Positions 8,300 to 43,400 of a stretch of DNA of 64,000 bases are shown here, one piece after another. This DNA is from Blepharisma japonicum. Lineage: Eukaryota; Ciliophora; Heterotrichea; Heterotrichida; Blepharismidae. The notes below the pieces were generated by a model. That model saw only the letters and a program-made list of their open reading frames with translations. It was not told the DNA's origin and did no database searches. Position 1 is the first letter of the stretch. Every line of letters begins with the position of its first letter. The DNA lies in assembly GCA_949751835.1 (NCBI GenBank), contig CATKHK010000097.1:89536-153535 (forward strand). Direction: 5' to 3'. Position numbers and translations under genes: made by a program.

Positions 8300-9188
8300 A
8301 TCTCAAGAATTATTAATGAAGAAATAGAATTTTTCTGAATAATTTAGCGATATTAAAATGCATTTAGCATATTAATATTTTGATGTCTAGAAAGAGAAAA
8401 AATAAAAATCTTCAGTCATAGAATTTTTAACTGAATAAATAAAAGCTAAATCTATGAAATAATTTAAATAAAATAAAAACATAATTAGTATTTAAGCAAA
8501 ATTTAACTTCTATTATAAAGATATTTATTTATAAAAAAGCGTTTATAAACCTATTTATTAGGCACATAGAATGGCCGTTGATATGCGACTCATTCTTACA
8601 GTGCGCGCGATTTTACTTGATGCAAAAAATTGCCCAAAGATTGGTTAAGATCGAGGCGATAGATTTACCCTCTGATAGTGGTCTATATCAAGCAGCAGCA
8701 TTTTGCATATTTTTGCGAGAAGCACCATAACAAATTTGGCTCCGAAAGATCGATCCGGGCAGAGCTACGGAGAAACTTAGGCAGGTAAGCCAATCTACTT
8801 TAGCCGCTGAGACTTTTTTGAGGATGATTCAGGGAAAGAGGGAAGGTTGACTTGATAAAGGCCAGTAAGACAGGGATAAAAAACTCTCCAGCTGAAAAGG
8901 GCTCCTTAATTTGGGTGATCTTAGGCTAAATTGGAGACATTAAAGCTTGGGTTAAAAATGAAGGTTCCCGCAATATTCTGTGTGATCGGAATCAGGAGAA
9001 AAATGCCTCACCTTAAAATGAGGGTTTTCGCCTGGAACACTAGCCTTGAGGGATCTCATCTCTCATAGCAGACGCTATGAAAAACATGATATTTAGTAAG
9101 TGGAAATGTTATTTCAAGAACAAATCTAGTCTAATAATTTTATATAATATAAGAATATTAGATTTATAGATGATAATACGTAATATAA
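8300..9188. repeat. intergenic repeat, longest copy (copy 1 of 3)
   Basis: This stretch recurs at 16345-17018 and, for its right end, at 13279-13558. Part of it (about 8560-9060) is clearly richer in G+C than the surrounding DNA. The best-conserved part is about 8915-9110. It contains two related 26-bp segments (AAAAATGARGGTTYYCGC core at about 8956 and 9018) and an inverted repeat CATAGC-AGAC-GCTATG near 9065. About 170 bp (roughly 8740-8908) are absent from copy 3; there a 45-codon + strand frame reads KLRQVSQSTLAAETF, which recalls retroelement RNase H. No intact gene is present. It could be a decayed mobile element or a non-coding transcript. Confidence 0.6.
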
Positions 9189-11765
9189 TTATTTTTTTAT
9201 TATATTTTGCCATTCCCAGAATTTAATTACGCAGTTTTTGATGCCTAAAGCAATTACTTTATCGCTAGCGGAAAATTCAAGGCAAGTAATTAAGTCCTCA
9301 GATTCCTTAAAACTGGCTAATAACTCTCTGCTCTCAACATCCCATACATAAATAATGTTTCTATGCTTTATCTCAGAGGTTACAATGCTCAAAGCTGCAA
9401 TATATTTTCCACTCGGGGAGAGCTTGATAAGTTTATAAGGATCATTTGCCTTACTTTTAAATATGCTTTCTAATCACATATCAGAATTTAGATCATAAAG
9501 AAAAATTTGATTCAAAGCTTCAGAAGTATAAGCAAAAATTTGGCTGAAAGGAGAATTATGGAGTATGATATTCTCTTTCAGATTTTTGATATATGACACG
9601 CATTTCATATCTCGGCAATTCCATATTTTGATTTTGTTATCTGCGGAGCAAGAGATTAGAGTTTCTTTATTTTGAGTGAATCCTAAGTACTTTGTGTGAT
9701 TAAATCTCGCATAAAGTATACCAATTTGCATTATGAAGTCTTGGCTTTTTACCTCTAAAAGATTAATTTGATCATACAGATCTCCAGTGGCAATTAATTT
9801 TTCATCATAAGAAATAGCTAGAGACCTGATATATTGGCCATTACCTGTAATTTCATGAAGTAAATCTAAATTTGGAGAGTAGATAAAAATTAAGCTATTG
9901 CTGGGCACTGCTATATAGCTGCCAGATGGTGAATATATAATAACTTTTACAGCATGATTTGGAGAACCTGTATCAATGTGTTTTATAACTTTATGCTGTA
10001 CTAAATCTCATAATTCTATCTCTGACTCTCCACAATGTGTAACAAAATAGTTACCACATGGAGAAAATGAAATAGAGTTAATAGTATTATTGCTTTTTTT
10101 TATTGGTTTATTGATGTCTAAACCAGAAATATCAAAAAATGAAATGCCTTTTCTTTTGCTAGCAGCCGCGATTGATTTTCCATTAGGCAAGAAGGCAATT
10201 TGTGAGGATTCTTTAAATATTTCACAATAGTTTTGATAAATAAAATGCTGAGTTTCTATATCAAAAACCAGGATTGTTCCATCTCCTGCTCTAAACACAA
10301 GTAAATTTATCTGATTGAAAGAAACTGTGGAAAATAAAAAAGTTGGGAAATATAAAAACACTTTTTCTCCAATATTTATGTTTCATACTGAAATATTACT
10401 TGAAACACAAACTATGAATTTCCCATTACTACTAGGTGTTATTGATTTAATTCATTTTTCATCCTTAAAGCGCTTTAAAAGTTTTTTTCCTTTCTTTTTC
10501 TTATTACGAATAAAAGTTGTTCCTTTATAGCACGGCACTAGCTTACTCTTTGCTAAAAAGTCTCATACTAGAATATAAGAATCGTAGCCAGCTGAATATA
10601 AGAACCTATTGCAAGGAGAAAATGACACATCTGAAACCTCTTCAGCGTGCCCATTCAGCATATGAATAAGTGATTTGCTTTTTAAATACCAAACTTTAAT
10701 GCTATTATCCATACTTCCAGCTGCAAAATATGTTTCACAAGAAGAAAATGCAAAGCAAAAGGCATATTTGCGAAACCCTTCAAATGTAGTTATTTTGCAA
10801 TCATTTTTCAAATCATATAAATTCACTATTCCAGATTTTATCGTTGCAATATAACGAGAGCTTGGTGAAAATCGTAATAAAGATAGAAGTCTTAAATCTC
10901 CGCAATAAATTTCTTTCAATAATTTATCAGATGCTATTTCTCATACTCGTATTGTTGCTTCATTTTCGAATCCAAAAGCTGCTAAATACCTCCCACATCT
11001 GGAAAAATCAAATTTTGCTCCGATTTTCTTATAACTTATAACCGGGTGATTGCTGGAAAACTTCGCATTGTTTAAGCTGCAATTTTTAAAATTCACTTTG
11101 TAAAGTTTTGATTGAGAAAAATTAGCTGAATTGAGACTGCTGCATTTAAAATTGGTGTTGATGAAAAAAGAGCGCGATAAATCGGCATATGGGATATTTA
11201 CTGATTGAAGATCAGCGTTATTAAATGAATAGCCAAGCTTGTTTAAGATAGAAATTGCGTTGCTTGCAGCTCTTGAGATCTCAGGAAGGCCTTTTGAGAG
11301 AGTTATGATTTTAAATAAGATTTCTTGGAGATTAGCTGAGAAATATTTTTTAAATAGCTCAAGACTTGGATAAAATGATACAAGATCAACTGAATTGAAA
11401 TAGGAATCTCTGAGAGTTTCAGCGTGGGTTCATTTAGGAATGTCTTTAATTATAGTGCTTCATATGCAAAAATGGATGTCCTTTAAGCATCCTGTCTTAT
11501 TAATAATCCGCTTATAAAGCCTGCAAGATATTAATTCTTTTGAGTTATACCTAAGGCTGTGTGCATTTGCATTTCATTTTCCTCTTTTCTCAATGCTATT
11601 TTGTGTAATAATGCAATCAAGATCATTTAAATATTTTAGAGCCGAAGATTTTGAGTGAGATTTATATAGTAAAAGCATCGATAATTTCCTATTGTGTATA
11701 TGATTCTCTTTTCTGCTATTAATAATAAAATTGTCTAAGTCTTCACGAGTTATTTCGTTCTCCAT
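9189..11765 (-). CDS. WD40 gene C: pentapeptide repeats and WD40 propellers
   Basis: An 858-aa frame without TAA/TAG until the stop at 9189, with TGA as Trp throughout. The ATG at 11765 (MENEITRED) is conserved in D and E; a TTG eight codons upstream is not needed. A helical N-terminus (about 1-70) is followed by a block with SNAISILNKLG, pentapeptide repeats (IPYADLSRSFFINTNFK type) and WD40 repeats ending in VIKFWEWQNIIKK. It is nearly identical to genes D and E over most of its length, so these three arose by recent tandem duplication. No catalytic motif is visible; probably a scaffold. Confidence 0.88.
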
Positions 11766-11924
11766 ATATTTTAATAATTTATAATTCAATGAAATAGGTC
11801 TGAAATATTACACTTACAAAATTTAAATTATAAACAACTCTTAAGTGGGTATTTCAAGCACAAATCTAATCTAATAATAATCTTGTATAATAAATAAATA
11901 TGGATATATAGATGATAATACGTA

Positions 11925-11975
11925 ATATAAGTATTATTTTATTATTTTTTGCCATTCTCAGAATTTAATTAATTC
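11925..11975 (-). pseudogene. 3'-end remnant of a lost WD40 paralog
   Basis: About 50 bp match the last codons of genes C-E (translating as IKFWEWQKIIK with a TGA Trp), together with the conserved post-stop sequence gatgataatacgtaatata. The similarity stops abruptly where the SET-domain pseudogene begins. It sits just beyond the 5' flank of gene C, the same place as the remnants beyond D and E. Confidence 0.7.
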
Positions 11976-13278
11976 TTGCTTCTCTTAGATCAGAGATCTC
12001 TTTGCTAAGGAGATTTTCTATTGAAATGTTTTTATCACCTTTGAAAATTGCCTTCAATCGACTTTTTATTGAAAAATCCTTGTTTCCTCATAAATAATCT
12101 AAAATTTCATCAGCTAAGATACAAATTGGACAGTGCAAATGATCATCTATATTTTGAATTATTTATTTTATTTTGTTCATCGTTATCATTAACTCCTTTC
12201 TTAGCACACAATAAAATTTTTGTACTTCCTCGTAAATATCTGTTGAGCCCATCTCTTTAAGTTTTTCTTTTTTATAACCACATAGGGCTTCAATATTCTT
12301 TAGAGTGAAATAAACTTAGCATTTTAGCCATTCTGGGCAATTAAAAAGCAAAGATGTACTTAGATTATACAGCCTTATGTAATCTTCCATAGATGATGAA
12401 TACTCGGTCTGTCATAAAAGACATAGAATATAAAAACTCCCAGAAAAATGCACTTGGCCAGTTTCGGCATTATTTAAATAGAGGTAAAATCCATTGCAAT
12501 TAGATTGTGAGCATAATCATATACTGTTTTTATGTTCTTCTTCAATTTCCGTATAAGATCCATAATTTCAACAAAGTTCTTCTCTTGGATTTATATTATT
12601 TATTGCGTATAGAGCCATTTTATACTGTCCACATGAGATAATTGTTCTAAGCTCACAATTGGACTTACAAGAATGGTTTATTTTTGGTACCCAGTTTCCT
12701 TTGACGCTGCTATCTATTAAAAATATTTTATAGCCTTTCATATCATCAGCTTCCCTTTCAAGCTCAACGTTGTAAAAATTTTAAAAGGTTGAGTTTCTCC
12801 ATATATACTTTTGACAATTTGCTTTATTATCATATCTTTCTCATAAAATTGAGTGGGGTTAAAAATCTATCCAATGTATTCTGCTAAGAATGCATTCTTT
12901 GAAATACTTTCTGGGCCATTATTAAATATCCCGAATCCTTTTTGGGAAACTATGAATTCTTAAGTATATTTTCTATTCCAAGAGAATAAAACACATTAAG
13001 CAAAGTTTTTGCAAAATTTTTCTCTTCGACATTGAAATCATTTACTTCAATAATTGTTGACAGACAGTGAATAAGGTCTTTGCTATAGTTGAAGAAATCC
13101 AATTTATTTCATTAAGCAAACTTTTGATTATAAGCAGCTTTGCTTTTTTGGTATTTCCTAAAATATAGCACAACATCATTACAGTTCGTTTGTCAAATCC
13201 AAAAGAGGGCCGTTCACTAAGATTTATTCCACATACATAATTCTCGTTTCTCTTTGAAACTTCTTGGTTGAAGCAATT
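11976..13278 (-). pseudogene. SET-domain methyltransferase pseudogene
   Basis: On the minus strand a degraded SET domain can be read in pieces. The N-terminal motif QKGFGIFNNGPESISK and AEYIG lies at about 12868-12945 and ends in TAG. After a frame change comes DSSVKGNWVPKINHSCKSNC (about 12655-12715) and then ALYAINNINPREELCWNYG. These match the G-x-G, NHSC and E-L-x-x-x-Y-G signatures of SET lysine methyltransferases. Two further in-frame TAAs interrupt the C-terminal part, and no 15-16 nt GT..AG intron removes them. It is inserted in the WD40 array between the remnant above and repeat copy 2. Confidence 0.75.
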
Positions 13279-13558
13279 TGTCTGAGTGATCTTAGGTTAA
13301 GTTGGATATACTGAAGCTTGGGTTAAAAATGAAGGTTCCCGCAATATTCTCTGTGATCGGAATGAGGAGAAAAATGCTTCACCTAAAAATGAGGGTTTTC
13401 GCCTAGAACAATCAGCCTGAGGGATCTCATCTCCATAGCAAACGCTATGAAAAACATGATATTTAGTAAGTGGGAATGCTATTTCAAGAACAAATTTAAT
13501 CTAATATTTTTGTATAATATAAAATTATTAGATATATAGATGACAATACGTAATATAA
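13279..13558. repeat. intergenic repeat, truncated copy 2
   Basis: Right-hand part of the repeat at 8300-9188, starting near TGAGTGATCTTAGGTTAAG. Its left end abuts the SET pseudogene. The inverted repeat CATAGC-AAAC-GCTATG and the duplicated AAAAATGARGGTT segments are intact. Confidence 0.7.
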
Positions 13559-15982
13559 TTATTTTTTTATTATATTTTGCCATTCCCAGAATTTAATTAC
13601 GCAGTTTTTGATGCCTAAAGCAATTACTTTCTCGCTAGTAGAAAATTCAAAGCAAGTAATTAAGTCTTCAGATTCTTTAAAACTGGCTAATAATTCTCTG
13701 CTCTCAACATCCCATACATAAATTATGTTTCTGTACTTTACCTCAGAGGTTACAATGCTCAAAGCTGCAATATATTTTCCACTCGGGGAGAGCCTGATAA
13801 GTTTATAAGGATCATTTGCCTTATTTTTAAATATGCTTTCTAATCATATATTAGAATTTAGATCATAAAGAAAAATTTGATTCGAAGCTTCAGAAGTATG
13901 AGCAAAAATTTGGCTAAAAGGAGAATTATGGAGTATGATATTATCTTCCAGTTTTTTGGGGTATCGCATGCTTTTCATTTCTCGGCAATTCCATATTTTG
14001 ATTTTGTTATCTGCGGAGCAAGAGATTAGAGTTTCTTTATTTTGAGTAAATCCTAAGTACTTTGTGTGATTAAATCTTGCATAAAGTAAACCAATTTGCA
14101 TTATGAAGTCTTGGCTTTTTACCTCTAAAAGATTAATTTGATCATACAGATCTCCAGTGGCAATTAATTTTTCATCATAAGAAATAGCTAGAGACCTGAT
14201 ATCGTGGCCATTACCTCCAATTTCATGAAGTAAGTCTAAATTTGGAGAGTAGATAAAAATTAAGCTATTGCTGGGCACTGCTATATAACTTCCAGATGGT
14301 GAATATATAACAACTTTTACTGCATAATTTGGAGAACCTGTATCAATGTGTTTTATAACTTTATGCTGTACTAAATCTCATAATTTTACCTCTGACTCTC
14401 CACAATGTGTAACAAAATAGTTACCACATGGAGAGAATGAAATAGCGTTAACAATATAATTGCTTTTTTTTATTGATTTATTGATGTCTAAACCAGGAAT
14501 ATCAAAAAATGAAATACCTTTTCTTTTGCTAGCAGCCGCGATTGATTTTCCATTAGGCAAGAAGGCAATTTGTGAGGATTCTTTACCTATTTCGCAATAG
14601 TTTTGATAAATAAAAAGCTGAGTTTCTATATCAAAAGCCAGGATTGTTCCATCTCCTGCTCTATATGCAAGTAAATTTATCTGATTGAAAGAAACTGTGG
14701 AAAGTAAAAAAGTTGGGGAATATAAAAACACTTTTTCTCCAATATTTATGTTTCATACTGAAATATTACTTGAAACACAAACTATGAATTTCCCATTACT
14801 ACTAGGTGTTATTGATTTAATTCCTTTTTCATCCTTAAAACGCTTTAAAAATTTTTTTCCTTTCTTTTTCTTATTACGAATAAAAGTTGTTCCTTTATAG
14901 TATGGCACTAACTTACTCTTTGCTACAAAGTCTCATACTAGAATATTAGAATCGTAGCCAGCTGAATATAAGAACCTATTGCAAGGAGAAAATGACACAT
15001 CTGAAACCTCTTCAGCGTGCCCATTCAACCTATGAATAAGTGATTTGCTTTTTAAATACCAAACTTTAATGCTATTATCCATACTTCCAGCTGCAAAATA
15101 TGTTTCGCAAGAAGAAAATGCAAAGCAAATGACACATTTTCGAAACCCTTCAAATGTAGTTATTTTGTAATCATTTTGCAAATCATATAAATTCACTATT
15201 CCAAATTTTATCGTTGCAAGATAACGAGAGCTTGGTGAAAATCTTAATAAAGATAGAAAACTGAAATCTCTTCAATTAATTTCTTTCAATAATTTATCAG
15301 ATGCTATTTCTCATACTCGTATTGTTGCTTCATTTTCGAATCCAAAAGCTGCTAAATACCTCCCACATCTGGAAAAATCAAAATTTGCCCCGATTTTCTT
15401 ATAACTTATAATCGGGTGATTGCTGGAAAACTTCGCATTGTTTAAGCTGCAATTTTTAAAATTCACTTGGTAAAGTTTTGATTGATAAAAATTAGCTGAA
15501 TTGAGACTGCTGCCTTTAAAATTGGTGTTGATGAAAAGAGAGTGCGATAAATCGGCATATGGGATATTTACTGATTGAAGATCAGCGTTATTAAATGAAT
15601 AGCCAAGTTTGTTTAAAATAGAAATTGCGTTGCTTGCAGCTCTTGAGATCTCAGGAAGGCCTTTTGAGAGAGTTATGATTTTAAATAAGATTTCTTGGAG
15701 ATTAGCTGAGAAATGTATTTTAAATAGCTCTAGACTTGGATAAAATGATGCGAGATCAACTGAATTGAAATAGGAATCTCTGAGAGTTTCAGCGTAGGTT
15801 CATTTAGGAATGTCTTTAATTATAGTGCTTCATACGCAAAAATGGATGTCCTTTAAGCATCTTATCTTATTAATAATCTTCTTATAAAGCCTACAATATA
15901 TTAATCCTTTTGAGTTATACCTAAGGCTGTGTGCATTTGCATTTCATTTTCCTCTTTTCTCACGAATTATATCGTTCTCCAT
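13559..15982 (-). CDS. WD40 gene D: paralog with in-frame N-terminal deletion
   Basis: An 807-aa frame checked for TAA/TAG. It aligns with genes C and E except that about 51 N-terminal codons are missing: the protein starts MENDIIREKRGKWNANAH, joining the first eight residues to the segment after NSIEKRGK of gene C. The deletion keeps the frame and its ends share a short match (ctca/ttca). The pentapeptide block and WD40 propellers are complete, ending in VIKFWEWQNIIKK. The gene may still be functional with a shortened N-terminal helix. The 3' flank carries repeat copy 2. Confidence 0.86.
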
Positions 15983-16124
15983 ATATTTTTATAATTTATA
16001 ATTTAATAAAATAGGTCTAAAATATTACGCTTACAAAATTTAAATTATAAACAACTCTTAAGTGGGCATTTCAAGCACAAATCTAATCTAATAATATATA
16101 GATGATAATACATACTATAAGTAT

Positions 16125-16310
16125 TATTTTATTATTTTTTGCATTTTCCCAGAATTTAATTTTGCAATTTTTGATTCCTATTGCAATTATTTTCTCACTA
16201 GCAGAAAATTCAAAGCAAGTAATTAAGTCCTCAAATTCCTTAAAACTTGCTAGTAGCTCTCTGCTCTCAACATGCCATATATAAATTATGTTTCTATATT
16301 TTATCTCACT
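16125..16310 (-). pseudogene. 3'-end remnant of a WD40 paralog
   Basis: About 60 codons match the final WD40 repeat of genes C-E (NIIYIWHVESRELLASFKE, then CFEFSASEKIIAIGIKNC). A one-base difference near the end replaces WEWQ with WENA and removes the stop. The similarity ends abruptly at about 16310. It lies beyond the 5' flank of gene D. Confidence 0.8.
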
Positions 16311-16344
16311 CCCCTCTTTAAACGATAAAATTTCAAATTTTGGG

Positions 16345-17018
16345 TAATAATTGCTTTAATGAAAAAATAGAATTTTTCGATATTCATATTAATATTTTGA
16401 TGCCTAGAAAGAGAAAAAATAAAAATCTTCAGTCATAGATTTTTTAACTGAATAAATAAAAGCTGAATCTATGAAATAATTTAAATAAAATTAAAACAAA
16501 ATTACTATATATAAGCAAAATTTAACTTCTATTATAAACATATTTACTTATAAAAAAGCGTCTATAAAACTATTAGGCACATAAAACGGCCGTTGATATG
16601 CGACTAATTCTCACAGGATGTGCGAGTTTTCTTGATGCAAGAAGCTGCACAAAGATTGGGTTAAGATCGAGCCGATTAGTTTAACTTCTGATAGTGGTCT
16701 ATATCAAGTAATACATTATGCATAGTTTTGCAAGAAGTAATACCAAATTTGACCTTAATTTGGGTGATCTTAGGTTAAGTTAGGTATACTGAAGCTTGGG
16801 TTAAAAATGAAGGTTCCCGCAGTATTCTCTGTGATCGGAATTAGGAGAAAAATGCTTCACCTAAAAATGAGGGTTTTCGCCTAGAACAATCAGCCTGAGG
16901 GATCTCATCTCCATAGCAAACGATATGAAAAGCATGATATTTAGTAAGTGGGAATGCTATTTCAAGAACAAATCTAATATAAAAATATTAGATATATAGA
17001 TGATAATACCTAATATAA
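16345..17018. repeat. intergenic repeat, copy 3
   Basis: Same repeat as 8300-9188, including the AT-rich left part (TGCCTAGAAAGAGAAAAAAT region), but missing about 170 bp in the middle. The right part is highly similar to copies 1 and 2. The inverted repeat near 16913 has one mismatch (CATAGC vs GATATG). No intact frame. Confidence 0.7.
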
Positions 17019-19598
17019 TTATTTTTTTATTATATTTTGCCATTCCCAGAATTTAACTACGCAGTTTTTGATGCCTAAAGCAATTACTTTCTCGCTAGTA
17101 GAAAATTCAAAGCAAGTAATTAAGTCTTCAGATTCTTTAAAACTGGCTAATAATTCTCTGCTCTCAGCATCCCATACATAAATTATGTTTCTGTACTTTA
17201 TCTCAGAGGTTTCTATGCTCAAAGCTGCAATATATTTTCCACTCGGGGAGAACTTGATAAGTTTATAAGGATCATTCTCCTTACTTTTAAACGTGCTTTC
17301 TAACCAGACATTAGAATTTAAAGCATAAAGAAAAATTTCTGTTGAAGCTCCAGAAGTATAAGCAAAAGTTGGGTGAGAAGGAGAAGCATGGATTATGGCA
17401 TTCAATTCTTTCAGATGTTTGAAGGACCACTTGCATTCCATTTCTTGGCAACTCCATATTTTAATTTCGTCATTGGCAGAGCAAGAGATCAGCATTTCTT
17501 TATTTTGAGTGAATCCTAAGTATTTGGTGCAAGTAAATTGCGAATTAAGTATAGAAAGTTGTTTTATGGAGTCTTGGCTTATTACTTCTCAAAGAATAAT
17601 TTCATCATCTATACTTCCAGCGGCCATTAATTTTCCATCAAAAGAAATAGCTAGAAACCTGATTAATATGCCACTACCTGTAATTTCCTGAAGTAAGTCT
17701 AAATTTGGAGAGTATATAAAAATGAAACTACTATTGGACATTGCTATGTAGTTACCAGATGGTGAATATATAATAACTTTTTCTGCATAATTACGAGAAC
17801 CTGTATCAATGTGTTTTATAACTTCATGCTGTGCTAAATCTCATAATTCTATCTCTGACTCTCCACAATGTGTAACAAAATAGTTACCACATGGAGAAAA
17901 TGAAATAGAGTTAACAATATAATTGCTTTTTTTTATTGGTTTATTGATGTCTAAACCAGAAATATCAAAAAATGAAATGCCTTTTCTTTTGCTAGCAGAT
18001 GCGATTGATTTTCCATTAGGCAAGAAGGCAATTTGTAAGGATTCTTTACCTATTTCGCAATAGTTTTGATAAATAAGATGCTGAGTTTCTATATTAAAAA
18101 CCATAATTGCTCCATCTTCTGCTCTGCACGCAAGTAAATTTATCTTATCAAAAGAAGCCATGGAAAGTAAAAAAGTTGGGGAATATAAAAACACTTTTTC
18201 TCCAGCATTTATGTTTCATACTGAAATATTTTTTGAAAGACAAACTATGAATTTCCCATTACTATTAGGTGTTATTGATTTAATTCATTTTTCATCCTTA
18301 AAACGCTTTAAAAGTGTTTTTCCTTTCTTTTTCTTATTACGAATAAAAGTTGTTCCTTTATAGTACGGTACTATTTTATCTTTTGCTGCAAAATCTCATA
18401 CTAGAATATAAGAATCATAGCCAGCTGAATACAAGAACTTATTGCAAGGAGAAAATGACACATCTATAACTTCATCTGTATGCCCATTAAGCGTATGAAT
18501 AAGTGCTTTGCTTTTTAAATACCAAATCTTAATGCTATTATCCTTGCTTCCAGCTGCAAAATATGTTTCGCACGAAGAAAATGCAAAGCAAGAGATATTT
18601 CTTTGAAACCCTTCAAATGTAGTTATTTTGTAATCATTTTTCAAATCATATAAAGTAACTATTTTAGATTTTATAGTTGCAATATAGCTGGAGCTTGGTG
18701 AAAATCGTAATAAAGATAGAAATCTTAAATCTCCGCAATTAATTTCTTTCAATAATTTATCAGATGCTATTTCTCATACTCGTATTATTGCTTCATTTTC
18801 GAATCCAAATGCAGCTAAATACCTCCCACATCTGGAAAAATCAAATTTTGCTCCGATTTTCTTATAACTTATAATCGGATGATTGCTGAAAAACTTCGCA
18901 TTGTTTAAGCTGCAATTTTTAAAATTCACTTGGTAAAGTTTTGATTGAGAAAATTTAGCTGAATTGAGACTGCTGCCTTTAAAATTAGTATTAATGAAAA
19001 GAGAGTGGGATAAATCGGCATATGGGATATTTACTGATTGAAGATCAGCGTTATTAAATGAATAGCCAAGCTTGTTTAAAATAGAAATTGCGTTGCTTGC
19101 AGCTCTTGAGATCTCAGGAAGTCCTTCTGAGAGAGTTATGATTTTAAATAAAATTTCTTGAAGATTAGCTGAGAAATGTATTTTAAATAGCTCAAGACTT
19201 GGATAAAATGATACAAGATCAACTGAATTGAAATAGGAATCTCTGAGAGTTTCAATGTGGGTTCATTTAGGAATGTCTTTAATTATAGTGCTTCATACAC
19301 AAAAATGGATATCCTTTAAGCATCCTATCTTATTAATAATCTGCTTATAAAGCCTGCAAGATATTAATTCTTTTGAGTTATACCTAAGGCTGTGTACATT
19401 TGCACTTCATTTTCCTCTTTTCTCAATGCTATTTTGTGTAATAATGCAATCAAGATCATTTAAATATTTTAGAGCCAAAGACTTTGAGTGAGATTTATAT
19501 AGTAAAAGCATTGATAATTTCCTATCGTGTATATGATTCTCTTGTCTGCTATTAATAATAAAATTGTCTATGTCTTCACGAGTTATTTCGTTCTCCAT
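17019..19598 (-). CDS. WD40 gene E: pentapeptide repeats and WD40 propellers
   Basis: An 859-aa frame, TGA=Trp, ATG conserved with C (MENEITREDIDNF). The order is the same as in gene C: helical N-terminus, SNAISILNKLG block, pentapeptide repeats, WD40 repeats, ending VVKFWEWQNIIKK. Differences from C and D cluster in the middle WD40 repeats (about 17300-17780), while the N-terminal half is nearly identical, suggesting uneven divergence or gene conversion. Probable scaffold; partner unknown. Confidence 0.88.
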
Positions 19599-19763
19599 AT
19601 ATTTTAATAATTTATAATTCAATGAAATAGGTCTGAAATATTACGCTTACAAAATTTAAATTATAAACAACTCTTAAGTGGGCATTTCAAGCACAAATCT
19701 AATCTAAATATAATTTATAATAGATAAATATAGATATATAGATGATAATACGTAATATAAGTA

Positions 19764-19950
19764 TTATTTTATTATTTTTTGCCATTCCCAGAATTTAATT
19801 ATGCAATTGATGATTCCTATTGCAATTATTTTCTCACTAGCAGAAAATTCAAAGCAAGTAATTAAGTTCTCAAATTCCTTAAAACTTGCTAGTAGCTCTC
19901 TGCTCTCTACATGCCATATATATATTATATTTCTATATTTTATCTCAGCA
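19764..19950 (-). pseudogene. 3'-end remnant of a WD40 paralog
   Basis: The last 60 or so codons of a gene C-type WD40 protein, including the natural end IIKFWEWQKIIK and TAA. The similarity stops at about 19950 (AEIKYRN). It occupies the same relative position, beyond the 5' flank of gene E, as the remnants at 11925 and 16125. Confidence 0.8.
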
Positions 19951-20039
19951 AAAGCTATTAAAATGAAATGCGACTAATCTAATTAAATTTAATTGAAAAG
20001 CTAATAAATCGTCATTCATTCTAATTTTAATTATATTTT

Positions 20040-22640
20040 CTAGATTCTGTATAGCTTGAATGTTCTATCAGCACTTACTGAAGCAAATTCAAGCTTTTTA
20101 TTATCGACAAACTGAAGAGAATTGACTGCATTGGAATGATATTTTAGTTCTTTTATAAGAGTTCCGTCCCACGTATTCCATAATTTTACGCAGCCATTTA
20201 AGCTTCCAGTTATCAAACAACCTCCACATAAAGACACAGCCATGGAGGGTATCATCCGGTTATCAGCTTGAATTTCTAAAATTTTCCATTGTGCTTCAAT
20301 ATCCCAAAGTATTACTTGCCCACCTATATCTGCTGAAATCAGATAATTAGCAGATTGAACGAAGCTAACACATAATAAATTATGCACATGACCATCCAAA
20401 GTCAACGATTTTTTGCTATCAAGATCTCATAAAAGCAGCTTTGTATTATCACTTGCAGTAGCAAGATATTTATCACATGGTGAAAACGCGATAGAGCTGA
20501 GCAATTCTGAGCTGCATTTTAAAAAAAAATAATTTGACGGTGTCGCTAGATCCCATACCTTAACTTCTCCATTGAATTGTCCAGCAGCTATAATTTTCCC
20601 ATTATAGGATACATCAATTGTAGAAATTTGAATATAACCCATAATGAATTCCTTTAAAAGATACTGATTTGCTACGTCCCAAACAGTGATATAATTCCTC
20701 GAGCACAATGATATAAGGAAATACCCAAATTTTAGAAACTTAACGTTAATGGCTATCCCTTTGTCGATTTGAAGCTTAAATTCATTTTTCTTTGTCTCAG
20801 TATCTTTAATCATGATGAATTTTGATGTGTCTGCAACTGCAATATATTTTCCATCATAAGAAAAAGATATAGAAGTGATTTGATTGCAAAAAGCAGGATG
20901 CTCTTCTAAAGATTTGATAGCTCAAATTTCTATTGATTTTTCTGATTTATCTGATTTCTTTATTGCTATATATTTTCCATTAGGAGAATAAGAGACTGAT
21001 AGCATACTGAAAAGTTGTTCATTGAATCATTTTACTTCTAAGTTGTTGTGTTTTGCTAAGAACTTAAGAAATGGTAATTGGTCTTCAGAATATAAGTGAG
21101 ATCTCTTAGAATATCTTAATAAATGCAATGAATTATAATCATTTCTAATTTCTTTATCTAGACGTCCAGTCTCTAGATCTCAGGTTCTAATAACTAAATC
21201 ATCACAGCTTGTTATTAAATATTTTGAGCATGGAGAAAATGAGACAGTCCTTACACAATCAGAGTGGCAAAATAGCCATTTATGGGAACTTATATCATCA
21301 ACATAAGAAACTATTGCAGAACAGTAGTTAGTTCCAAAAGCAAAGTATTTCCCACAAGTAGAATACGCAACTGAGTTTACAGTATCTTTATCATAGTTTA
21401 TACAGGCAGCTAACATATATGTTTCAATATTTCATATTCTTATGTGCTCATCATAGCTTCCAGTCGCAACGAAATTTCTGTTAGGTGATATAGCTATTGA
21501 AGTAATAGAGTCTGTGTGGCCTGTTAACTTTATAAGTCGCTTTTCAAGCTTAATGTCTCATAAATTCAGGATATAATTGCCATCAGCTACAGCAAGTAGA
21601 GTCCCATCTTTTGAAAAAGAAATGGCACTAATACTTGCATTGTGCTTGAATTCTTTGAATTTAAGACCTTTTCTAATATCATGCATAATCACAGTATTGT
21701 AACAATCATAGGCTAAATAATTCCCACAGGATGAGAAAGCTACAGAATGGGCAGGGTATGTACTTATAATTGGTGGAAGCTGCCCAAACCAAGCATCTGA
21801 TAAATCACAGTTGCTGAAATTAGAATCATATATATTTGCATACGAAAAATCGACTCCTTTTAAGTTGCTTCCTTCAAAGTCTGTGTTTATTATTAGTGCT
21901 TCTGATAAGTCTGCACCTTTAATTTGAATTCCTCTAAAATCTTTATCAATAAAATTGTATTTGGAATAATTTAAGATAGTTATAGCGTTGCTGGCTGCAT
22001 ATTTCAGATTTTTATTAATTTTTGAGTGTAAAATAATGCCTAAAAGCTTTTCTCTAAGTACATCAGTCATTATATCCTTGAAGCAGTTTAAAAAGTCTTT
22101 GTTGTTTCTGAAACTGATTTTATTGATATAGCTTTCATTGAGAGAGGAAGGACTGTTTATTTTGAGAATATGATCACTTAAGGATCTAGCAAGCTTATGA
22201 TTGAGCTCATTACATGTATAGATAACAACTGATCGAGTAATATTTGGTAATAAGATCTCAGGCTTGATTGTGTCACAGGGATTTTGTGGATATCAGCTGT
22301 CTGAAATACTTACATGAGTCTTTCTTTTTGATCAATTGAGAGAAAGAATTATGAGCTCAGCATACTGAATAATATATGCTAAAGTTTTACTAATATTGTC
22401 AGTAATTTTCTTATAGTATGAGTTCTGGCAGAAATTGCTTGCGAGTATATCCTCATAATCGCAATTATTGTTTGGTCAATAATTTCTTGGAAGCATGCAT
22501 ATACTTCTATGTTGGATTTTGCTCGAATCTCTTAAGTGCTTCATAAAATGCTCTTTACAAAGTAAATGCTCATTTGCTAAGCACACACAAACGAAAGCAG
22601 AAACATTTTTACACCACTTTATTTCACATTGCAAGGGCAT
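20040..22640 (-). CDS. WD40 gene F: B-box-like zinc motif, pentapeptide repeats, WD40 propellers
   Basis: An 866-aa frame ending in TAG, checked for TAA/TAG, with TGA as Trp. The start ATG (MPLQCEIKW) is the first ATG in frame. Cys5, Cys10, Cys18, Cys20, Cys28, His31, His35 and a later His44 have exactly the spacing seen in gene A. A helical linker leads to SNAITILNYSKYN, a pentapeptide block (IKGADLSEALIINTDFEGSNL) and WD40 repeats with canonical VKLWNTWDG and IRTWDLET motifs. It is well diverged from A-E. It is transcribed divergently from the kinesin gene across 118 bp, so the two probably share a promoter region. Confidence 0.88.
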
Positions 22641-22758: not shown

Positions 22759-24996
22759 ATGGAACAAAGTTACGATCCCTCTCAAGATAACACCCTCGTC
22801 CTTTGCCGTTTCAGGCCTCACAATGACTTCGAGCGAGAATTCTCTAGCAAAGAGATCGTGGAAATTGCCCAAGACAATCAATCAGTAACTATCTTCCAAA
22901 CCAAAGAAAAAGGAGAGCCACTTTCCTTTCCCTTTGACTACGTTTTTGATGAAAACGACACCCAGTCCACTGTATATGAAAAAGCTGCTCGGCCAATTGT
23001 AGACGGCGTCATGGAAGGTGTAAATGGGACAATTTTCGCATATGGGCAAACCTCTGGAGGAAAAACCTATACAATGACAGGTCCAAATTTTGAAGACCCA
23101 GTTGACATGGGCTTAATTCCACGAATGATCACCAATGTCTTTTACCAAATCGAGAACTCCTTAGAACATTTAGAATTCACAGTAAGAGTCTCTTATAGTG
23201 AAATTTACATGGAAAAAATTAGAGATCTCCTTGCACCTGAACATGATAATTTAAAGATAAGAGAAAATAAAATCATGGGCGTCTATGTGGAAGGGATAAC
23301 AGAAAGTTACACGTCAACAGGAGATGAAGTTTTTGAATGAATGAAATACGGCACAAAAAACAGGACAGTTGGGGCGAATAATATGAATATGAAGTCATCA
23401 AGGTCCCATGCAATTTTTTCTATGACGGTAAGCCAGACAAATAAACTGGATTATACTACAAGGGTGGCTAAACTTCATATGGTTGACTTGGCAGGGTCTG
23501 AAAAAGTATCAAAAACTGGAGCTGAAGGTCTCAGACTTGAAGAAGCGAAATTAATAAATAAATCGCTAACAACTCTGGGAATCGTAATTACTGCTCTTAC
23601 AGAGTCAAAAAAAAGCCACGTTCCTTATAGATCTTCTAAGTTAACTCGGCTTCTCCAGCAGTCTCTTGGAGGGAATGGAAAAATGTCTCTAATTATCTGT
23701 TGTTCTCCATCACTTTATAATGAACAAGAAACAATCAGCTCGCTTAGATTTGGAGCTCGAGCTAAACTAATTAAAAATACTCCAAAAGTAAATAGAGAAT
23801 ACACCCTTGCTGAGCTAAAGCTACTTTTAGCACAGGCAAGAGAAGAAATCAGGAGAAAAGACAAAAGAATTAAAGTCCTTGAAGACCTTCTAAGACAAGC
23901 TGGAATTGCAATCCCAGAAATGGTTGACCTTGACGAAAGCGACTTTGAAGATGAATACAGAGATGGAGCTTATGCAGACGTGATACAAGAGCTAGAAGAC
24001 CTCAGGTCTAGGCTTTCAGAAGAAGTGGAAAATAGCTTAAAACTTAAAGAAGATGCAAAAGAAGCACAGACAGAGTCTGAAGAGTATAAAAGTGTCTATA
24101 GTGTCATGGAACAACATATCAAATATATGGACTCCCAAATTAAAAATTTCGAAAATTCTCAAAAAGAAAAAGATGACCTCATTGAAAAATTGACAGTTGG
24201 CAAAGAGTCATATGAAGCTGAGCTATCTGCAATTACAACAAAAATGCTTGAACAAGAACAAAAATTAAATGAAAGAGAAGTTGAAATAGAAATACTCAAA
24301 AATAAGTTGAAAAATATGAAAGGCGATGTGGTACAGCAACAAAGGACTGAAGAAGACCAAAGGAATGAGGTGAAAAAAGAAATTTATAGAAAATATACAG
24401 TAAGCCATCAGCTTCCTCCTATAAAAGAGTCTACTATTGAGTCAGTCAGCGATGAAGTCTATGATGAGCAGAAGTGGCGAGAAGAAAAAAGAAAAATGAT
24501 AAGAGACTTGCAAAAACGAATAGCTCAAGTTGTAGATCTCGAACTCGCCCTTGAAGAAGCTCGTGAAAACTATGCCACTTTAGAACTTACTATGTCTGAA
24601 GGAGAAAGAGCTCTTAAAAAGAAAACTGATGTGCTTGAGCGAAATCTAGAACAGTTAACGTTAATGTACCATCAGCTCGCAAGCCAAAAATCAGCATTAT
24701 CAGTAGACAAACAAGTGGCTGAAAGAAAAAGCCAAAGACTTCAAGAAAAAATAAGGCTCCTTGAAGATCAGCTTAAAAAGACCAATGTAGAGCTTGATAA
24801 ATGCCAGCGCGAAATTAAATATTTAACAGAAACTTTTGAAAAAACCTCAAAATTAAGCATGCTTGCGAACCCAGGCGGACTTGGTGCTATCGTCCCCAGT
24901 GGAAGAATTCGGAAATCAATCAAAGGTGGAGCTGGCTCTTTTAAGCCTCAAATCCCTGAAGTCACAAGAAATTACTCAGTTTCAATCAATATGTAA
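22759..24996 (+). CDS. kinesin-1-like heavy chain motor
   Basis: A 745-aa kinesin with an N-terminal motor (about residues 10-345). The P-loop is GQTSGGKT (96-103), switch I NMKSSRSHAIF, switch II DLAGSEKVSKTGAEG, and the motor ends with RFGARAKLIKNTPKVN. An internal TGA at 23338 must be Trp194, because the motor continues in the same frame with no gap. The N-terminal motor, the SYSEIYMEKIRDLL segment and the neck place it closest to conventional kinesin-1, a plus-end microtubule transporter. The rest (about 350-720) is heptad-rich coiled coil, with a short basic tail. It is about 200 residues shorter than animal kinesin-1. The 3' end converges on the next gene. Confidence 0.93.
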
Positions 24997-25085
24997 AATT
25001 AGGCGGCTTCTTAAAGTAAATAAGTATGTGCTGAATCGCCTCTTGCTCTTCCTTGTGTGTGTTTAAATGGAATTCTAAGTAAAGC

Positions 25086-26676
25086 TTACACAACGCTGAT
25101 ATCAGCTCTTTTTTCAGTCTCTTTTGTAATGGTTGTTTCGGAAACATAACCTCTCATGATCACTAAAAGAGTGTCAAATCCTGCCAGAGAAACGCCATAT
25201 CTTGTTATGTCTTTTATGATGCGGTTAAATGACCGTCGTTTTAGCTTCCCGCTCCTTGCTCTGAATATTTTGTCTAGATCTAGGTTTGATAATGATTTTG
25301 TTATAAAACTGATTTTATAACAAAGAGATATAGATCTTGCATTTGAGTCCTGAATAAAAAATTACGGTGACTGATAATGATAAATTTATAGCTCCAGGCT
25401 CACAGTGGTTTATTGCAAACTCTATGAGGCACCGGATAAGGAGAGAGTGTTTTTCAGAATCCCCAAGGATATAGGGAGGCAGGCTTGGGGATTTTGAGAG
25501 CTCGACAAATGAATTATGTTTGTCATTCCTTAAAGATAGCCCCTAAATCGCTATTACTTCAATAATGTCTTTTACTTCTTTTTCTGGAGAAAAATTTTCG
25601 CTTGAAAATTCGAATTTCCCATAAAATTGAGACTGCAGCACAAAAACCGACTGAAATCGGTATAGAACGTCTTTAGAAAACGCCAAAAGTTCTTTACAAG
25701 GCGATTGAGATTGGTAGCAAAATTTTTTAAGCTCGAAATTTAGAACATCTAACTTCGATCCAAAATCCTTATACAGCGAAGTTAAAAGTTTCCTTTGTTT
25801 GAAAAACTCTGAAATATCAGAAATACAAATAACAATGCATTCATCGTTATTTCACCTCAGCAATGAGGAAAATAATTGCAGTCCTTCTACATCATTTTCA
25901 TTTATAATCGAAATTTCTTCAAGTGTCAAGTCTTTTTTGTAAGTTTTTTGCAGAAAAGATTTGATTTTATACTGGTTGTCTTCGTCAAATAATTTCTCAA
26001 ATGGCTTTCCCTTAAGATCATTACTTGACAAAATTACTGACGCTTGTTTATTGTGATCCAAAACTTTTCAATTTTTCCCTAGAAAAACGATCCCACAAGG
26101 GAAGTTTTCAAGGAGTGCTTTTAAATCTTCCTGAAATTTGTCATCGTCTGAAATCTTGTAATAAAATCCTCTTAATGCATTTTCTATATGTAATGCAAAG
26201 AAAAAAAAAGTGACGCAAGCGATGACGATCCCTATAACGTCAAACTCAAAGCACAGTAATAATATCAATAATTTCAAAAGAAAAGTGAGGATCCACTTAT
26301 ATGGTTCACGAGCTGATAAAAAAACTAAATTAAAATTACCAACAACTAAGCATGGGACGAAATAGAGACAGCTGCTTAATATATTTGGTTTGAATTGAAG
26401 CCAAAAGCTGGCAGTTAAATGGGGAACTTGAGTTAAAATTCATATCTTCGAAGAATAATTGCGTAGCAAATACACAAATATCGCGGAAGTTGTGTAATAA
26501 ATTGCAGCTGATAAATCAATATCTTCTTTAAGAGCAAGTGCAAAGAAAATCGGAATATTAAGCAAAATAATTGTATAGGTTCATGGAATCAGTTGCTCAT
26601 TCAATTTATTTTCGTAGTCTTTGAATTTTAGATTGTTTTGTAAGAACTGAAAAGAGATGTCTAGGAATTTATCCAT
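25086..26676 (-). CDS. histidine-kinase-like membrane protein lacking catalytic residues (two tiny introns)
   Basis: The coding sequence is join(25086..25349, 25366..25542, 25558..26676) on the minus strand: 519 aa and an exact multiple of three after removing a 16-nt and a 15-nt intron. Residues 1-190 hold several membrane helices. A PAS-like stretch (ENFPCGIVFLGKNWKVLDHN) follows, then a helical region where a dimerisation domain would be, but with no H-box His. The C-terminal half has the outline of a HATPase domain (LIRCLIEFAINHCEPG; DITRYGVSLAGFDTLLVIM), yet the Asn of the N-box and the G1 and G2 glycines are gone. It is best read as a pseudo-histidine kinase related to the gene at 506-2629, possibly a sensor or dimer partner. 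Confidence 0.75.
25350..25365 (-). other. 16-nt intron
   Basis: Minus-strand sequence GTAATTTTTTATTCAG. Without splicing, the frame hits TAA shortly after. Removing it restores a frame that runs 85 codons to a TAA and contains the degenerate HATPase C-terminus. Confidence 0.8.
25543..25557 (-). other. 15-nt intron
   Basis: Minus-strand sequence GTAATAGCGATTTAG, containing an in-frame TAG that would otherwise end the protein. Length and GTA..TAG ends fit the 15-nt introns known from heterotrich ciliates. Confidence 0.8.
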
Positions 26677-27737: not shown

Positions 27738-28625
27738 TTATTCGAAATGAATAATTGACCTGTCATTCAAAGGTTGGGCTTCTCTATAGTTTCCTTTTCC
27801 TCCAGCAAAGCTATGGTTTCCACTCCAATGCCGTGTGAAAAATTCCAGCTGTTCACTATTGATTGAGTTCAGATGAGGATTCAAAAACCAAAGTACAGGC
27901 TCAAACAAAGGAGGAGTAGTCAATGACCCTTCATAGAAATACAAGCATTTCATCTTCGGGATCATCAAATTCATATCAATAGAAGTAGGTTCTGCTTCAC
28001 TTCTTATCACATTTTCCAAAAATGGGTTCGCCCTGCCGTCATTTCTGAAGAAAAATCCAAATACAAGGAGATTTTAAGGGTTTGACCTTTCTTTATGCAC
28101 AACGTGCATTTCTAGGTCATATCTCTGCCCATATAACAAGTGTTCGCTGCTTGCATGGAAGTGAAACTGCGCAATGTCGAAAGTACGAGGGTTTTCTTCA
28201 AAGAGCGAATTCACTAGAAGGCTGCCAAAGTTGCCTCTTACAATAAAGGTTCTTGGGTTGAACTCTCCTTTGGCTGTATGTGGAGCATAATTGATGTTGA
28301 GAGGAAAATACCAACGGTTCTTTAAGATGTCGGAGGCGTTAATCACTGCATGTGGGTCAATATTAATTGGAGATTGATGAGGACCGCAAGGCCATTCGTG
28401 TGCCCATTCAGCTTCTTTATGCTCGCCATATTCCCATTCATCCTCTTCGGGGAATTTCCCACTTTGAGTTTGGTGATGACCCAGTAACGTCAGAAGTCTT
28501 AAAACATTGTTGGCTTTGGATTCATTGGTAAGTTTTGCATGGTCCAATTTTTGCCTAAGGGCTTCATTAATTTCTACGTGTGCTGCTTCACGTCCGTGGG
28601 CTGTATGATGGTGCTCGTGCTCCAT
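27738..28625 (-). pseudogene. alpha-carbonic anhydrase 1 with in-frame TAA
   Basis: A 295-codon frame parallel to the neighbouring intact carbonic anhydrase, interrupted by a single TAA at 28074-28076. It aligns gaplessly with the neighbour across the stop (HKERSN-P-stop-NLLVFGFFFRNDG against HKERSNTNNIAVLGFVFKDDG), so this is a point nonsense change, not a boundary. QSPINIDP, the zinc histidines in AQFHFHASSEH and EMHVVH, and GSLTTPP are all present. No GT..AG intron of 15-16 nt covers the stop. The N-terminus is His-rich (MEHEHHHTAHGR). Options are a fresh pseudogene, an assembly or base error, or readthrough; TAA is a normal stop elsewhere here. Confidence 0.8.
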
Positions 28626-29061
28626 GATTGATTATAAACCAATCCTAATATGGCTGATTAAGTTCTCAGAAATAAAAGAAGCCTTTTAAGTTTGCGAAAT
28701 AGCCTTGGAATTATGAGAACGTTTTGGAATAAAGGAGATAAAGTTTGAATAGCCAATAAAATAGCAAATAAACTATAAAATTGTGATAGGTTGAGGAGTA
28801 GAAGAAAATGTTTGGGAAATTATAAATTTCATTTGTGTAAAAAGAGTTTCCAAAATAGGTGTTTATATATAAGTTTAACTGTAGTTATCTTCAATTGCTG
28901 CTAAATGCTATAATTTCAAGAGCATAATGCTTAGAGAGAAAAAGGAAATTTGTTGAAATATTAAATTTGACTTAGTGATTTAATAACCGTTTTGAGTTCG
29001 AAAACCAAAATGCCAAATGATTTTAACAGTATAAGAGCAGCTAATGTCTCTCTTACTTAAT
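28626..29061. other. intergenic, no gene seen
   Basis: About 436 bp between the two carbonic anhydrase genes, presumably the 5' flank of carbonic anhydrase 1 and the 3' flank of carbonic anhydrase 2. AT-rich with no recognised element. Confidence 0.55.
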
Positions 29062-29952
29062 TTATTCAAAATAAATAACTGACCTCCCATTTGGTGGCTG
29101 GAGCTCCCTATAATTTCCTTTTCCTCCTGCAAAGCCAGGATTCATCCCCCACTGTCTTGCAAAAAATTCCAACTGTTCTCTATTCACCGAAAGAACATGT
29201 CCTACAACAAACCAAAGTACAGTTTCAAACGCAGGTGGCGTTGTTAGTGATCCTTCATAATAAAACACTCCTGACTTCTGTGGAATTAATAAATTCATAT
29301 CAATATAAGTTGGTTCCAAAGAGCTTCTTATCACCTGATCAATAAACGGGTTTCTGACACCATCATCTTTAAACACAAATCCAAGGACAGCGATATTATT
29401 AGTATTGCTCCTTTCTTTATGGACTACATGCATCTCTAAATCATATCTCCGACCGTTCAGTAAATGTTCAGAAGGTGCATGAAAGTGAAACTGAGCCTCA
29501 TCAAAAACTCTTGATTGGTCCTGATGGATAAAAGTGTTAACTGCTAAATTCCCTAAATTCCCTTGGACTATGAAAGTCTTAGAATTAAAGGTCCCTTTTA
29601 GAGAAGTTGGGTGATAGTGAAGTCTAATTGGGAAATAAGGTCGATGCAAAAACTCTGCACTTTTAAAGGTGATGTCAGGGTCAATGTTGATAGGAGATTG
29701 GAAGTAGCCGATTTGGCAGATCCGACACCATTCAGCTTCGTGGTAAGCTCCATACTCCCATTCATCTTCTTCAGGCCAACGCCCAGTCTGAGTTTGGTGA
29801 AAATCCAGCGCTTTTAGAGGCTTTATTACTGCTTCAAGCTGATTTGGGTTCATAAAACTATTAGGTTTAATTTTTGCTTCAACTGCCAATCTATGCTGGT
29901 CAGTATCACTATAATTATAGCTTGGATATTGAATATATTGACCTTGATCCAT
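29062..29952 (-). CDS. alpha-carbonic anhydrase 2 (carbonate dehydratase)
   Basis: A 296-aa alpha-class carbonic anhydrase, which interconverts CO2 and bicarbonate. Zinc ligands are His156 and His158 in AQFHFHAPSEH and His175 in EMHVVH. The family motif QSPINIDP is at about 85-92 and the active-site Thr loop is GSLTTPP (234-240). The N-terminus has about 75 extra residues, acidic and aromatic (WPEEDEWEYG), with no signal peptide, so a cytosolic location is likely. It is a tandem paralog of the broken copy at 27738-28625 and shares the EEDEWEYG region with it. No internal TGA occurs; Trp is encoded by TGG here. Confidence 0.95.
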   Translation of the reverse strand: MDQGQYIQYPSYNYSDTDQHRLAVEAKIKPNSFMNPNQLEAVIKPLKALDFHQTQTGRWPEEDEWEYGAYHEAEWCRICQIGYFQSPINIDPDITFKSAEFLHRPYFPIRLHYHPTSLKGTFNSKTFIVQGNLGNLAVNTFIHQDQSRVFDEAQFHFHAPSEHLLNGRRYDLEMHVVHKERSNTNNIAVLGFVFKDDGVRNPFIDQVIRSSLEPTYIDMNLLIPQKSGVFYYEGSLTTPPAFETVLWFVVGHVLSVNREQLEFFARQWGMNPGFAGGKGNYRELQPPNGRSVIYFE

Positions 29953-40421: not shown

Positions 40422-43400
40422 TTAATAAATTTCTTTTGCAATTGAAAAGTCCTTGAACATTAAATCGGTAGATGAGCGACGGTCTGGGACAATTTTTGCG
40501 AGGGCATTCTTGGAGTGCTTACCAAAAGTAAATGCGAATTTGAATAAATGAGTTGTATCCAAACCTTTTTTCTTATATAAAAGACTGGGATACATTTTTC
40601 TTTGCACGTAAACTCCGACAAGGGCAATTATTATTCATCCTATGCACACTACTGTAAAATAAATATATACATTTCCCCCAACATTTGACGAGATTGTCGA
40701 AATTACAGAAAGCCAGACCACACCAACTAAGCTCAAACCTTGCCATCAACAAAGTCTTGGATAATTATAGGGCTTATACCTAAATATATATCCAACGTAA
40801 GCAATCATTAGAACTGTAAAGAGGGCACCATGAACTGTGCTTTCAGTCCTTTTGACTGTTTTATTCATAACTATTAATATAACTTGAATGACAGTTTTTA
40901 CCATTAAAAACGGAGGGGCTGTATGTATATGCACCATATGCTGAAGTTCTTGTCACAAAGGTCTACAAAGGACAGCAAGTGGTTCATAGCATAATAGAGC
41001 AATAAAAGAAAAAATTGCATATATTAAATGCTCATCTTTTCAACAAAAATAATAGCAATCATCAGCAAGAAAACTGTCAGTAAAATTCTCTCCAATAGAT
41101 TGGTCACATATAAACACGTTCAAACACATTGAAATAAAAGGGATAAAACACAAATTGCCTAAAATAGGCATTAAATAATCTGCAAGTAAAGCTAATAATC
41201 TAAATATTGAGACTTTGGGAAATTTTTCATCTAAACTGAGCAGTATAACTAAACACAAAATTAGCCACAAAACAATAGCCGCATAGACTCCATCCATTAT
41301 AATTCAAAATACCCCTTTTTGTAGTGCAAAAATATTTTCGAGACTGAGAGAAAGAGAGCTGCTGATTTTCGCTAGGAAACTATTTATTGGAGTTATATCA
41401 GGCCCCATGGCTGCAAATTGGAAAAATTCAATAGCAACAGTTAATTCTACAATAATATCTTGAAGTGAAATCTCTTGTCTTTCTTTAAGCTCTTCAATTG
41501 TTATATTTCATCAATTTTTTCATATATACGCTGTAGCAATGAAAGACACTAAAGCAAATCCAAAGCAGATCGCAAAAACAAGGATTCTTCCTTTAGCGAA
41601 TGTTTTTACCTGCTTTTGAGGAAAAGGACATATATTATTTTGATTTCTCAAGTCATCTGGCTTTACAGTAGTCCCATCTCCATAAACAATAGGTGTATTA
41701 ATAATTAGCATTGTACCGCTAAACGGGTGAAATTCTCCCATTTTATATGAGATCACATCTCCTGAAATTGTGTCTATTTTGCTGACCATGACATCGAAAG
41801 AATCCATAACTCTGTCGTTACTGCTTTTATCAATAGAAACTATTCCAGTGCATCCAGTAAACTTTTGCGCTCTGATTGCCAAATTTATTTGATGAGGATC
41901 ATTATAATCACCTCCTTGATTTATCATGTAATCCAAAGCAAGCCCAATTAAATATGCTGCATCATAACTATAGCAAGTAGAAGGAAATGGCACAGTGCTA
42001 TATTGAGATGCTATTTGTGAGTAAGCTAATTCCCCAACTTTTCCGACTCAATTTCGCCCACTAATAGCCATCATTGGAACCCCAGTTTCTTTAAATTTAT
42101 TCTCATACAAAAAATCGTACTGTATCATTGTTAGCATTTCTTGGTTTGTAACAAAAACAAAAAGATCTCCTTTCCTTAGGCCCATATCATACAGCTCTTC
42201 AAGGACATAATATGCTGCAGGCGGCATCAATAGTAAAACCAGAAGTCTGGCTTCTGTATCAATGATTTCTTTCAATAAATTAGAGTATTGTTTTATATTA
42301 GTCCTATTTAGATCTGGACGAATTACCCTTGAGTTTTCAGAATTCAGAATTTCTAATTTGTAATGTCCTGCGTTATTCTTAATTGCTGAATATCCTGACC
42401 TTCCAGTTGCATCATCAGAATATAAAACACAAAATTTCCTTCAGCCTAAAGCTCTAAATAAAAGTGAAATCAACGAATAAAGGTAGCGGTTTGAAATAAT
42501 TACTCTTGTAAATAGAGGATATACTGCTGTAGAATTCAATGAATAGTCATCAGGCGTGAACCCAACAACTGGCAAGGTTAAATTTAAACTTTTAAAGAGA
42601 TTAATTTCTGCAATAGTCATTAAAGAGCTAGGTGCTGATAAGTGTGCTAATCCAAATTTATCTATGTCTTTCACAAAGCAGGATGTTGCAAAATCTTCAT
42701 CATAAGTAATGACGCCGCAATCAAAAATAAAGTGCTTTATTTGAAAATGCGTTAAAATTCCAAGTTTACCCTCATTAATTAAATTTCATGCTGTATAAGC
42801 GCCATAATATAAAAGGGGTGCAGCAGTTAGAGGAGGAGTTCCTGGGTTTGAAGCGCCTCCAGAAGCTGTGAGGTGTAAGATCTTTTTGTCTGACCTAGGC
42901 ACATCAATAGAATTTTGGGGAAAAATCAAACTTTTCAAGATTGTGACTGTTCCAGCAGATATTGACCCAACTATTTCTCTTTTATTGTCCTGTATATTTA
43001 CTATAGAAAATAGACTTTTCTCTTTATATATTTTTAGCAAAGACTTCAGCTCTTCTGCTGTTTCTACTGTGTGATTCAGTAAAAATAGTATTAAATTTTC
43101 AAAAGAGCTTAATAAAAAATTTTCTTGGGAGTTTGTATATTCTTGTCCTATAGCAGTAACAATGATTGCTCCATCAATTTTGGTTTCATAGCCACTGTTT
43201 TGACTTAGCAATAATCCGTCTCCTTTTGATAGGAGTTTTTTATATTTCAGCATTTCCTGAATTTTTGCCGAGAGAACAGAATTTGCAAAAATGTAATATA
43301 ATGTAGTACCTAAAGGCTTGATGATTCGGTTTACTAACCTTTCAAGATTTGCTGATGATTCTATAGTTATATAATCAAAAGCATCTGAATAATCTACAAA

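Follow-up and report, generated by a model that had tools for sequence, protein, structure and literature searches.

Gene structure

The gene interrupted by very short segments on the minus strand at 25011-26676 is best read as containing spliceosomal introns of the ordinary type, in the size class of heterotrichs. These would number four rather than two, in a gene of a Blepharisma-type macronuclear genome whose product is a membrane protein of PAS-like and histidine-kinase-like character (probability about 0.9, judged from sequence). The introns appear to be of a known kind, and the earlier prediction of two introns and 519 codons is replaced by one with four introns and 534 codons. The window, that is, the whole stretch of DNA analysed, corresponds to the final 64 kb of a 153.5-kb contig.

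The minus-strand coding region runs from an ATG at 26674-26676 to a TAA at 25011-25013, with TGA read as tryptophan. Exon 1 (26340-26676) is followed by intron 1 (GTAATTTTAATTTAG, 26325-26339), which is 15 nt long, in phase 1 and without an in-frame stop. Between exon 2 (25558-26324) and exon 3 (25366-25542) lies intron 2 (GTAATAGCGATTTAG, 25543-25557; 15 nt, phase 0), forced by an in-frame stop, the TAG at its acceptor. Intron 3 (GTAATTTTTTATTCAG, 25350-25365; 16 nt, phase 0) is forced by the frame and leads into exon 4 (25090-25349). Intron 4 (GTAAGCTTTACTTAG, 25075-25089; 15 nt, phase 2) contains a TAA at 25086-25088, and exon 5 (25011-25074) includes the stop codon TAA. Thus the lengths are 15, 15, 16 and 15 nt, and all four introns have GT-AG ends and an A at position 10 (15-nt introns) or 11 (16-nt intron). 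Introns 2 and 3 both begin with GTAA and finish with AG. Counted from the sequence, A and U make up 46 of the 61 intron bases (75%).

Read from the ATG at 26676 with TGA as tryptophan, the raw frame was found to run for 377 codons before a stop. It reached 448 codons when intron 2 was removed and 519 codons when introns 2 and 3 were removed, ending at the TAA at 25086-25088 and including four TGA codons. This reproduces the starting point of a sequence-only reading of the same DNA, which had described a 15-nt and a 16-nt segment of intron character whose removal opens a 519-codon frame; each of the two segments (GTAATAGCGATTTAG and GTAATTTTTTATTCAG) occurs once in the window, on the minus strand. 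The in-frame TAG noted in the first segment is present, but it is the 3' splice site itself. That reading had taken the gene to hold two introns and to extend over 519 codons, neither of which was upheld: five of the 519 codons are intron 1, which is invisible to reading of open frames because it is in frame and stop-free, and the 3' end of the gene was misplaced because the apparent stop codon lies inside intron 4. Reading frames alone therefore overlook 15-nt introns, as two of the four were missed, one being stop-free and one hiding an apparent stop.

Removal of the introns would proceed by ordinary two-step splicing, with GTAA as the 5' site, a putative branch-point A at position 10 in the 15-nt introns and position 11 in the 16-nt intron, and AG as the 3' site, giving a very small predicted lariat of 10-11 nt. 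A transcript keeping intron 2, 3 or 4 would give a protein cut short, and one keeping intron 1 a protein with just five additional residues. In the four-intron model, 14 bases separate the stop codon of the gene from that of a kinesin gene converging on it from the plus strand (22759-24996).

Splice-site scans

Introns were searched for with our own gene finder, which relies on codon usage and considers both strands and all intron phases, in the window and in twenty 10-kb stretches (264 kb in total). In a length-blind run over these 264 kb, where gaps of 10-30 nt were allowed and only GT and AG were fixed, 28 gaps were called. The commonest length was 15 nt (11 of 28), and most of the 15-nt gaps displayed the pattern GTA......A...TAG. 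In the gene under study, intron 2 was called and intron 3 was placed as a gap of 22 nt starting at an upstream GT. The latter placement was rejected, since 16 nt fits better with the alignment and with the introns of the paralogues. Gaps of 11-12, 17-18 and 21-30 nt were treated as noise; four of them lie elsewhere in the window (11, 12, 21 and 30 nt), and some may hide real features.

In the same length-blind run no gap was called at introns 1 and 4. This agrees with a simpler model in which the gene has only two introns and 519 codons, stops at 25086-25088 and has no intron at 26325 or 25075, a model further favoured by the fact that its frame is open and complete, so that two cuts suffice. 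It is nonetheless considered improbable in view of the splice-site scores, the profile scores and the paralogue introns. A splice model was rebuilt from 15 introns outside the window and 14 paralogue introns, with the introns of the window left out, although the 15 had been picked using a model that still contained them. Across both strands of the window, the rebuilt model ranked the site at 25075 as the strongest and that at 26325 as the second-strongest 15-nt site, while 25350 was the strongest 16-nt site. The core of intron 2 was weak by the same measure (score 7.51, eighth among the 15-nt sites of the window), and the sites above it include four antisense and one intergenic site.

A pattern model was also seeded with 14 introns, five of them from paralogues and one from the window, and in this run 31 gaps were called in the 264 kb, 20 of which were 15 or 16 nt long. 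When GT..AG gaps were restricted to 15/16 nt, 22 were called in the 264 kb, versus 1, 4, 0, 1, 1, 5, 3 and 1 for eight control sets of end dinucleotides run at equal prior and core model. The 15/16-nt GT..AG calls exceed chance. Within the window the run gave four such calls; every one of them falls in this gene, and the remaining 22 gene models have none. The earlier statement that the window holds only two introns was thus revised to four, and its suggestion of a low intron density was borne out.

Of the sites scoring at least 9 in the 264 kb, gene models hold 22 in sense and 5 in antisense orientation, and 3 are intergenic. The sense count is partly circular, as introns of the model are among the sense sites, and the antisense count is not. 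A 15-nt intron-like site on the plus strand at 48569-48583 (GTAATTTTTATTCAG, score 11.02) was called intergenic. The site starts 35 bases ahead of the gene model at 48604 and may be an intron of a 5' UTR or the mark of a missed upstream exon.

Scoring of splice combinations

Each of the four segments can be kept or cut out, and the 16 resulting combinations were all scored against a profile made solely from paralogues. The four-intron form was the best of the 16, reaching 221.8 bits, compared with 206.4 bits for the 519-codon frame of the two-intron model and 100.3 bits for the raw frame. Removal of intron 4 improved the score by 12.3 bits over the 519-codon frame; when the kept form was read past the stop, the gain was 7.5 bits (from 211.2 to 218.7). 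Its removal joins a conserved VIPF segment, which aligns with an IP/LP segment of the paralogues.

For intron 1 the gain against the paralogue profile was 3.1 bits. Out of 1,596 deletions tested, 22 (intron 1 itself included) scored equally well or better. These were found at offsets 326-366 in 21 cases and at 236 in one, the former region being where the family lacks five residues. Moreover, intron 1 is the only one of four GT-AG 15-mers in the coding sequence whose removal does not cost 12-14 bits. The rows of the profile retained the receiver-domain introns and the counterpart of intron 1 in paralogue L015, which, if anything, biases the score against intron 1. Some 16-nt cuts within 7 bases of the borders of intron 3 scored up to 1.4 bits more, and for introns 2 and 3 alike the profile also tolerates borders shifted by a few bases. 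The profile alone does not fix them; the exact borders of these two introns are set by their GTAA and AG ends, together with the introns of the paralogues in the case of intron 3.

Comparison with paralogues

A protein search of the same genome returned 15 matches: the gene itself accounts for two, and the other 13 are paralogues with 19-29% identity. A second search with a single paralogue as query added only two weak short matches, on contig C4. The introns of the paralogues were removed and the 13 proteins were then aligned with the window protein. It was observed that intron 1 shares its column and phase with a 16-nt intron in L014, where it is frame-shifting, and with a 15-nt intron in L015, a coincidence that also argues against the two-intron model. 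Intron 3, with 16 nt, shares its column and phase with 15-nt introns in L009, L010 and L011; it is one column apart from the 15-nt introns in L014 and L015, where the alignment is uncertain owing to a gap. At the position of intron 3, an intron is therefore present in five of the 13 paralogues and absent in eight. For introns 2 and 4 no called counterpart was found in any of the 13 paralogues. All 13 align without gaps across the junction of intron 2, and the paralogues without introns at the positions of introns 2 and 3 continue straight through both junctions. In the family tree, which leaves out L014, the window gene forms a long branch (2.06 changes per column). One ancestral intron 3 followed by losses and several independent gains are indistinguishable in this tree, because the window gene and L015 are long branches that meet.

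A long branch, together with a protein that is shorter than most of its relatives and has no receiver domain, would also be compatible with assembly errors or with a decaying pseudogene whose frame was broken by chance. This is very unlikely, as the breaks coincide with 15/16-nt GTAA...AG segments, intron 3 lies at the intron position of five paralogues, and the frame is open over 534 codons outside the four segments. Least credible of all is that the segments are left-over germline-limited DNA (IESs): Blepharisma is described as having about forty thousand IESs, some 70% of them inside genes, but the median length given in the same source is 255 bp (PMC9942856), the segments found here measure 15/16 nt and have intron ends, and strong sites prefer the sense strand of genes (22 versus 5).

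The protein and its family

The protein encoded by the four-intron gene is likely to be a histidine-kinase-like sensor, as judged from its sequence. A PAS domain scored 16.7 bits in the window protein, below the Pfam cut-off of 27, and the family profile matched histidine kinases of the PDB weakly (best E 0.0052). The membrane segments were recognized by their appearance. Pfam gave no match to a receiver domain in the window protein, which ends before the aligned domain, as do L007 and L012. A receiver domain is present in relatives such as L010 (54.2 bits), and in five paralogues tested it was above the Pfam cut-off. For the 519-aa protein, the Pfam matches to PAS were likewise below the cut-off, and one match to a V-ATPase (E 0.016) was taken as chance.

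Eight of the paralogues (L004, L005, L008, L009, L010, L011, L013 and L016) carry a 15-nt phase-1 intron at one common position near the C-terminus. It is stop-free in all eight, each protein having exactly five residues more when unspliced than when spliced. Upon its removal, the score of the Pfam Response_reg domain rose from 55-60 to 66-70 bits in all five of these paralogues that were tested, a gain of 10-12 bits in each by a measure that does not depend on this genome. The removal also yields the motif GMDxFLxKP, which we take to resemble the usual receiver signature. An annotation based on open reading frames would retain five extra residues in these eight paralogues, and stop-free phase-1 introns in general, including intron 1 of the window gene, are invisible to it.

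The most useful new detail is the presence of matched 15- and 16-nt introns at common positions in paralogues, which makes the family a natural test set for the two lengths at one position. It could be proposed that intron positions are old in this sensor family, their lengths varying between 15 and 16 nt, and that the stop-free phase-1 introns are kept on purpose, giving rise to isoforms with five more residues. This proposal is regarded as unlikely. If it were true, the extra residues would lie in a membrane segment or beside the conserved lysine of the receiver.

Relation to known short introns

The size class assigned by the sequence-only reading was confirmed: length, GT-AG ends and an A near the intron end match those reported for Stentor (PMC9505925) and Blepharisma (PMC9942806). 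Specifically, introns of Stentor coeruleus are likewise 15 or 16 nt long with GT-AG ends and an A at position 10 or 11, and their AU content, 75.63%, compares with the 75% of the four introns described here (PMC9505925). According to that source, the branch-point A is at position 10 of 15 in 90.90% and at position 11 of 16 in 5.02% of all 8,806 introns. Stentor introns, 93% of which are 15 nt, are biased to the 5' end of genes (PMC9505925), whereas three of the four introns found here are located past the midpoint of the gene. In size, the introns of this gene belong with the shortest on record. For Stentor, the question has been raised of how a spliceosome of full size copes with a lariat measuring about 10 nt (PMC9505925). 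About 95% of heterotrich introns are given as 15 bp (PMC11441545). Loxodes magnus resembles the present case in that its very short introns are hard for gene finders, but their mode is 17 nt and the portion of introns shorter than 16 nt is described as negligible (PMC11441545), unlike the 15/16 nt observed here. The introns presented here constitute an in-silico model, while those of the Blepharisma sister paper were taken from RNA-seq (PMC9942856).

Genome context and intron density

Three tandem units of the telomere repeat CCCTAACA gave 77 forward and 91 reverse matches in the genome, many of those listed being at contig starts (for example C36:3-26, C47:8-31 and C80:2-25). The backward control gave none. 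TGA codons were found inside the window gene and its paralogues, and U2 and U6 snRNAs were detected at three places and at one place, respectively, all above the family cut-off. The telomere repeat, the reading of UGA as tryptophan and the U2/U6 snRNAs together point to a Blepharisma macronuclear genome, and the snRNAs also speak for a spliceosome encoded in it. Blepharisma is described as having the CCCTAACA telomere, UGA as tryptophan, a genome of 41 Mb with 66% AT and 'predominantly 15 and 16 bp introns' (PMC9942806). The length class, the genetic code, the telomere and an AT-rich, gene-dense macronuclear genome are thus shared with Blepharisma stoltei, although the assembly used here comprises 45.2 Mb in 224 contigs, compared with 41 Mb in 64 telomere-to-telomere sequences for that species (PMC9942806). 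No match was obtained in the window by a tRNA scan or by an Rfam scan at gathering scores.

Among gene models of at least 300 bp, a strong intron was found in 9 of 117 outside the window and in 1 of 21 inside, and none of the 117 had more than three called introns. These counts are likely to be lower bounds. In B. stoltei, 4,670 of 25,785 genes (18%) are multi-exon (PMC10946202, Table 1), and the low intron density here is as in the published Blepharisma data and is already known. The 22 called 15-nt introns were divided into nine in phase 0 (eight with a stop), ten in phase 2 (all with a stop) and three in phase 1 (one with a stop). The consensus GTAA...TAG means that a 15-nt intron left in place brings its own stop into the frame when in phase 0 (the acceptor TAG) or phase 2 (the donor TAA); phase 1 alone has no built-in stop. 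Phase-1 introns of 15 nt are probably under-called, as the cases found by homology show.

Several groups of related genes were also observed on the minus strand of the window. At 27738-29952 there are three short related models, the first of which has 72 codons, is 66% identical to part of the third and is possibly a gene fragment. Three related genes at 40422-55107 share an ANF_receptor ligand-binding domain and about 85% protein identity. Six related models lie at 2680-22496, and the four that were scanned are all WD40-repeat proteins. Two of the WD40 models (13559-15982 and 9189-11765) are 90% identical in protein, which points to a recent duplication.
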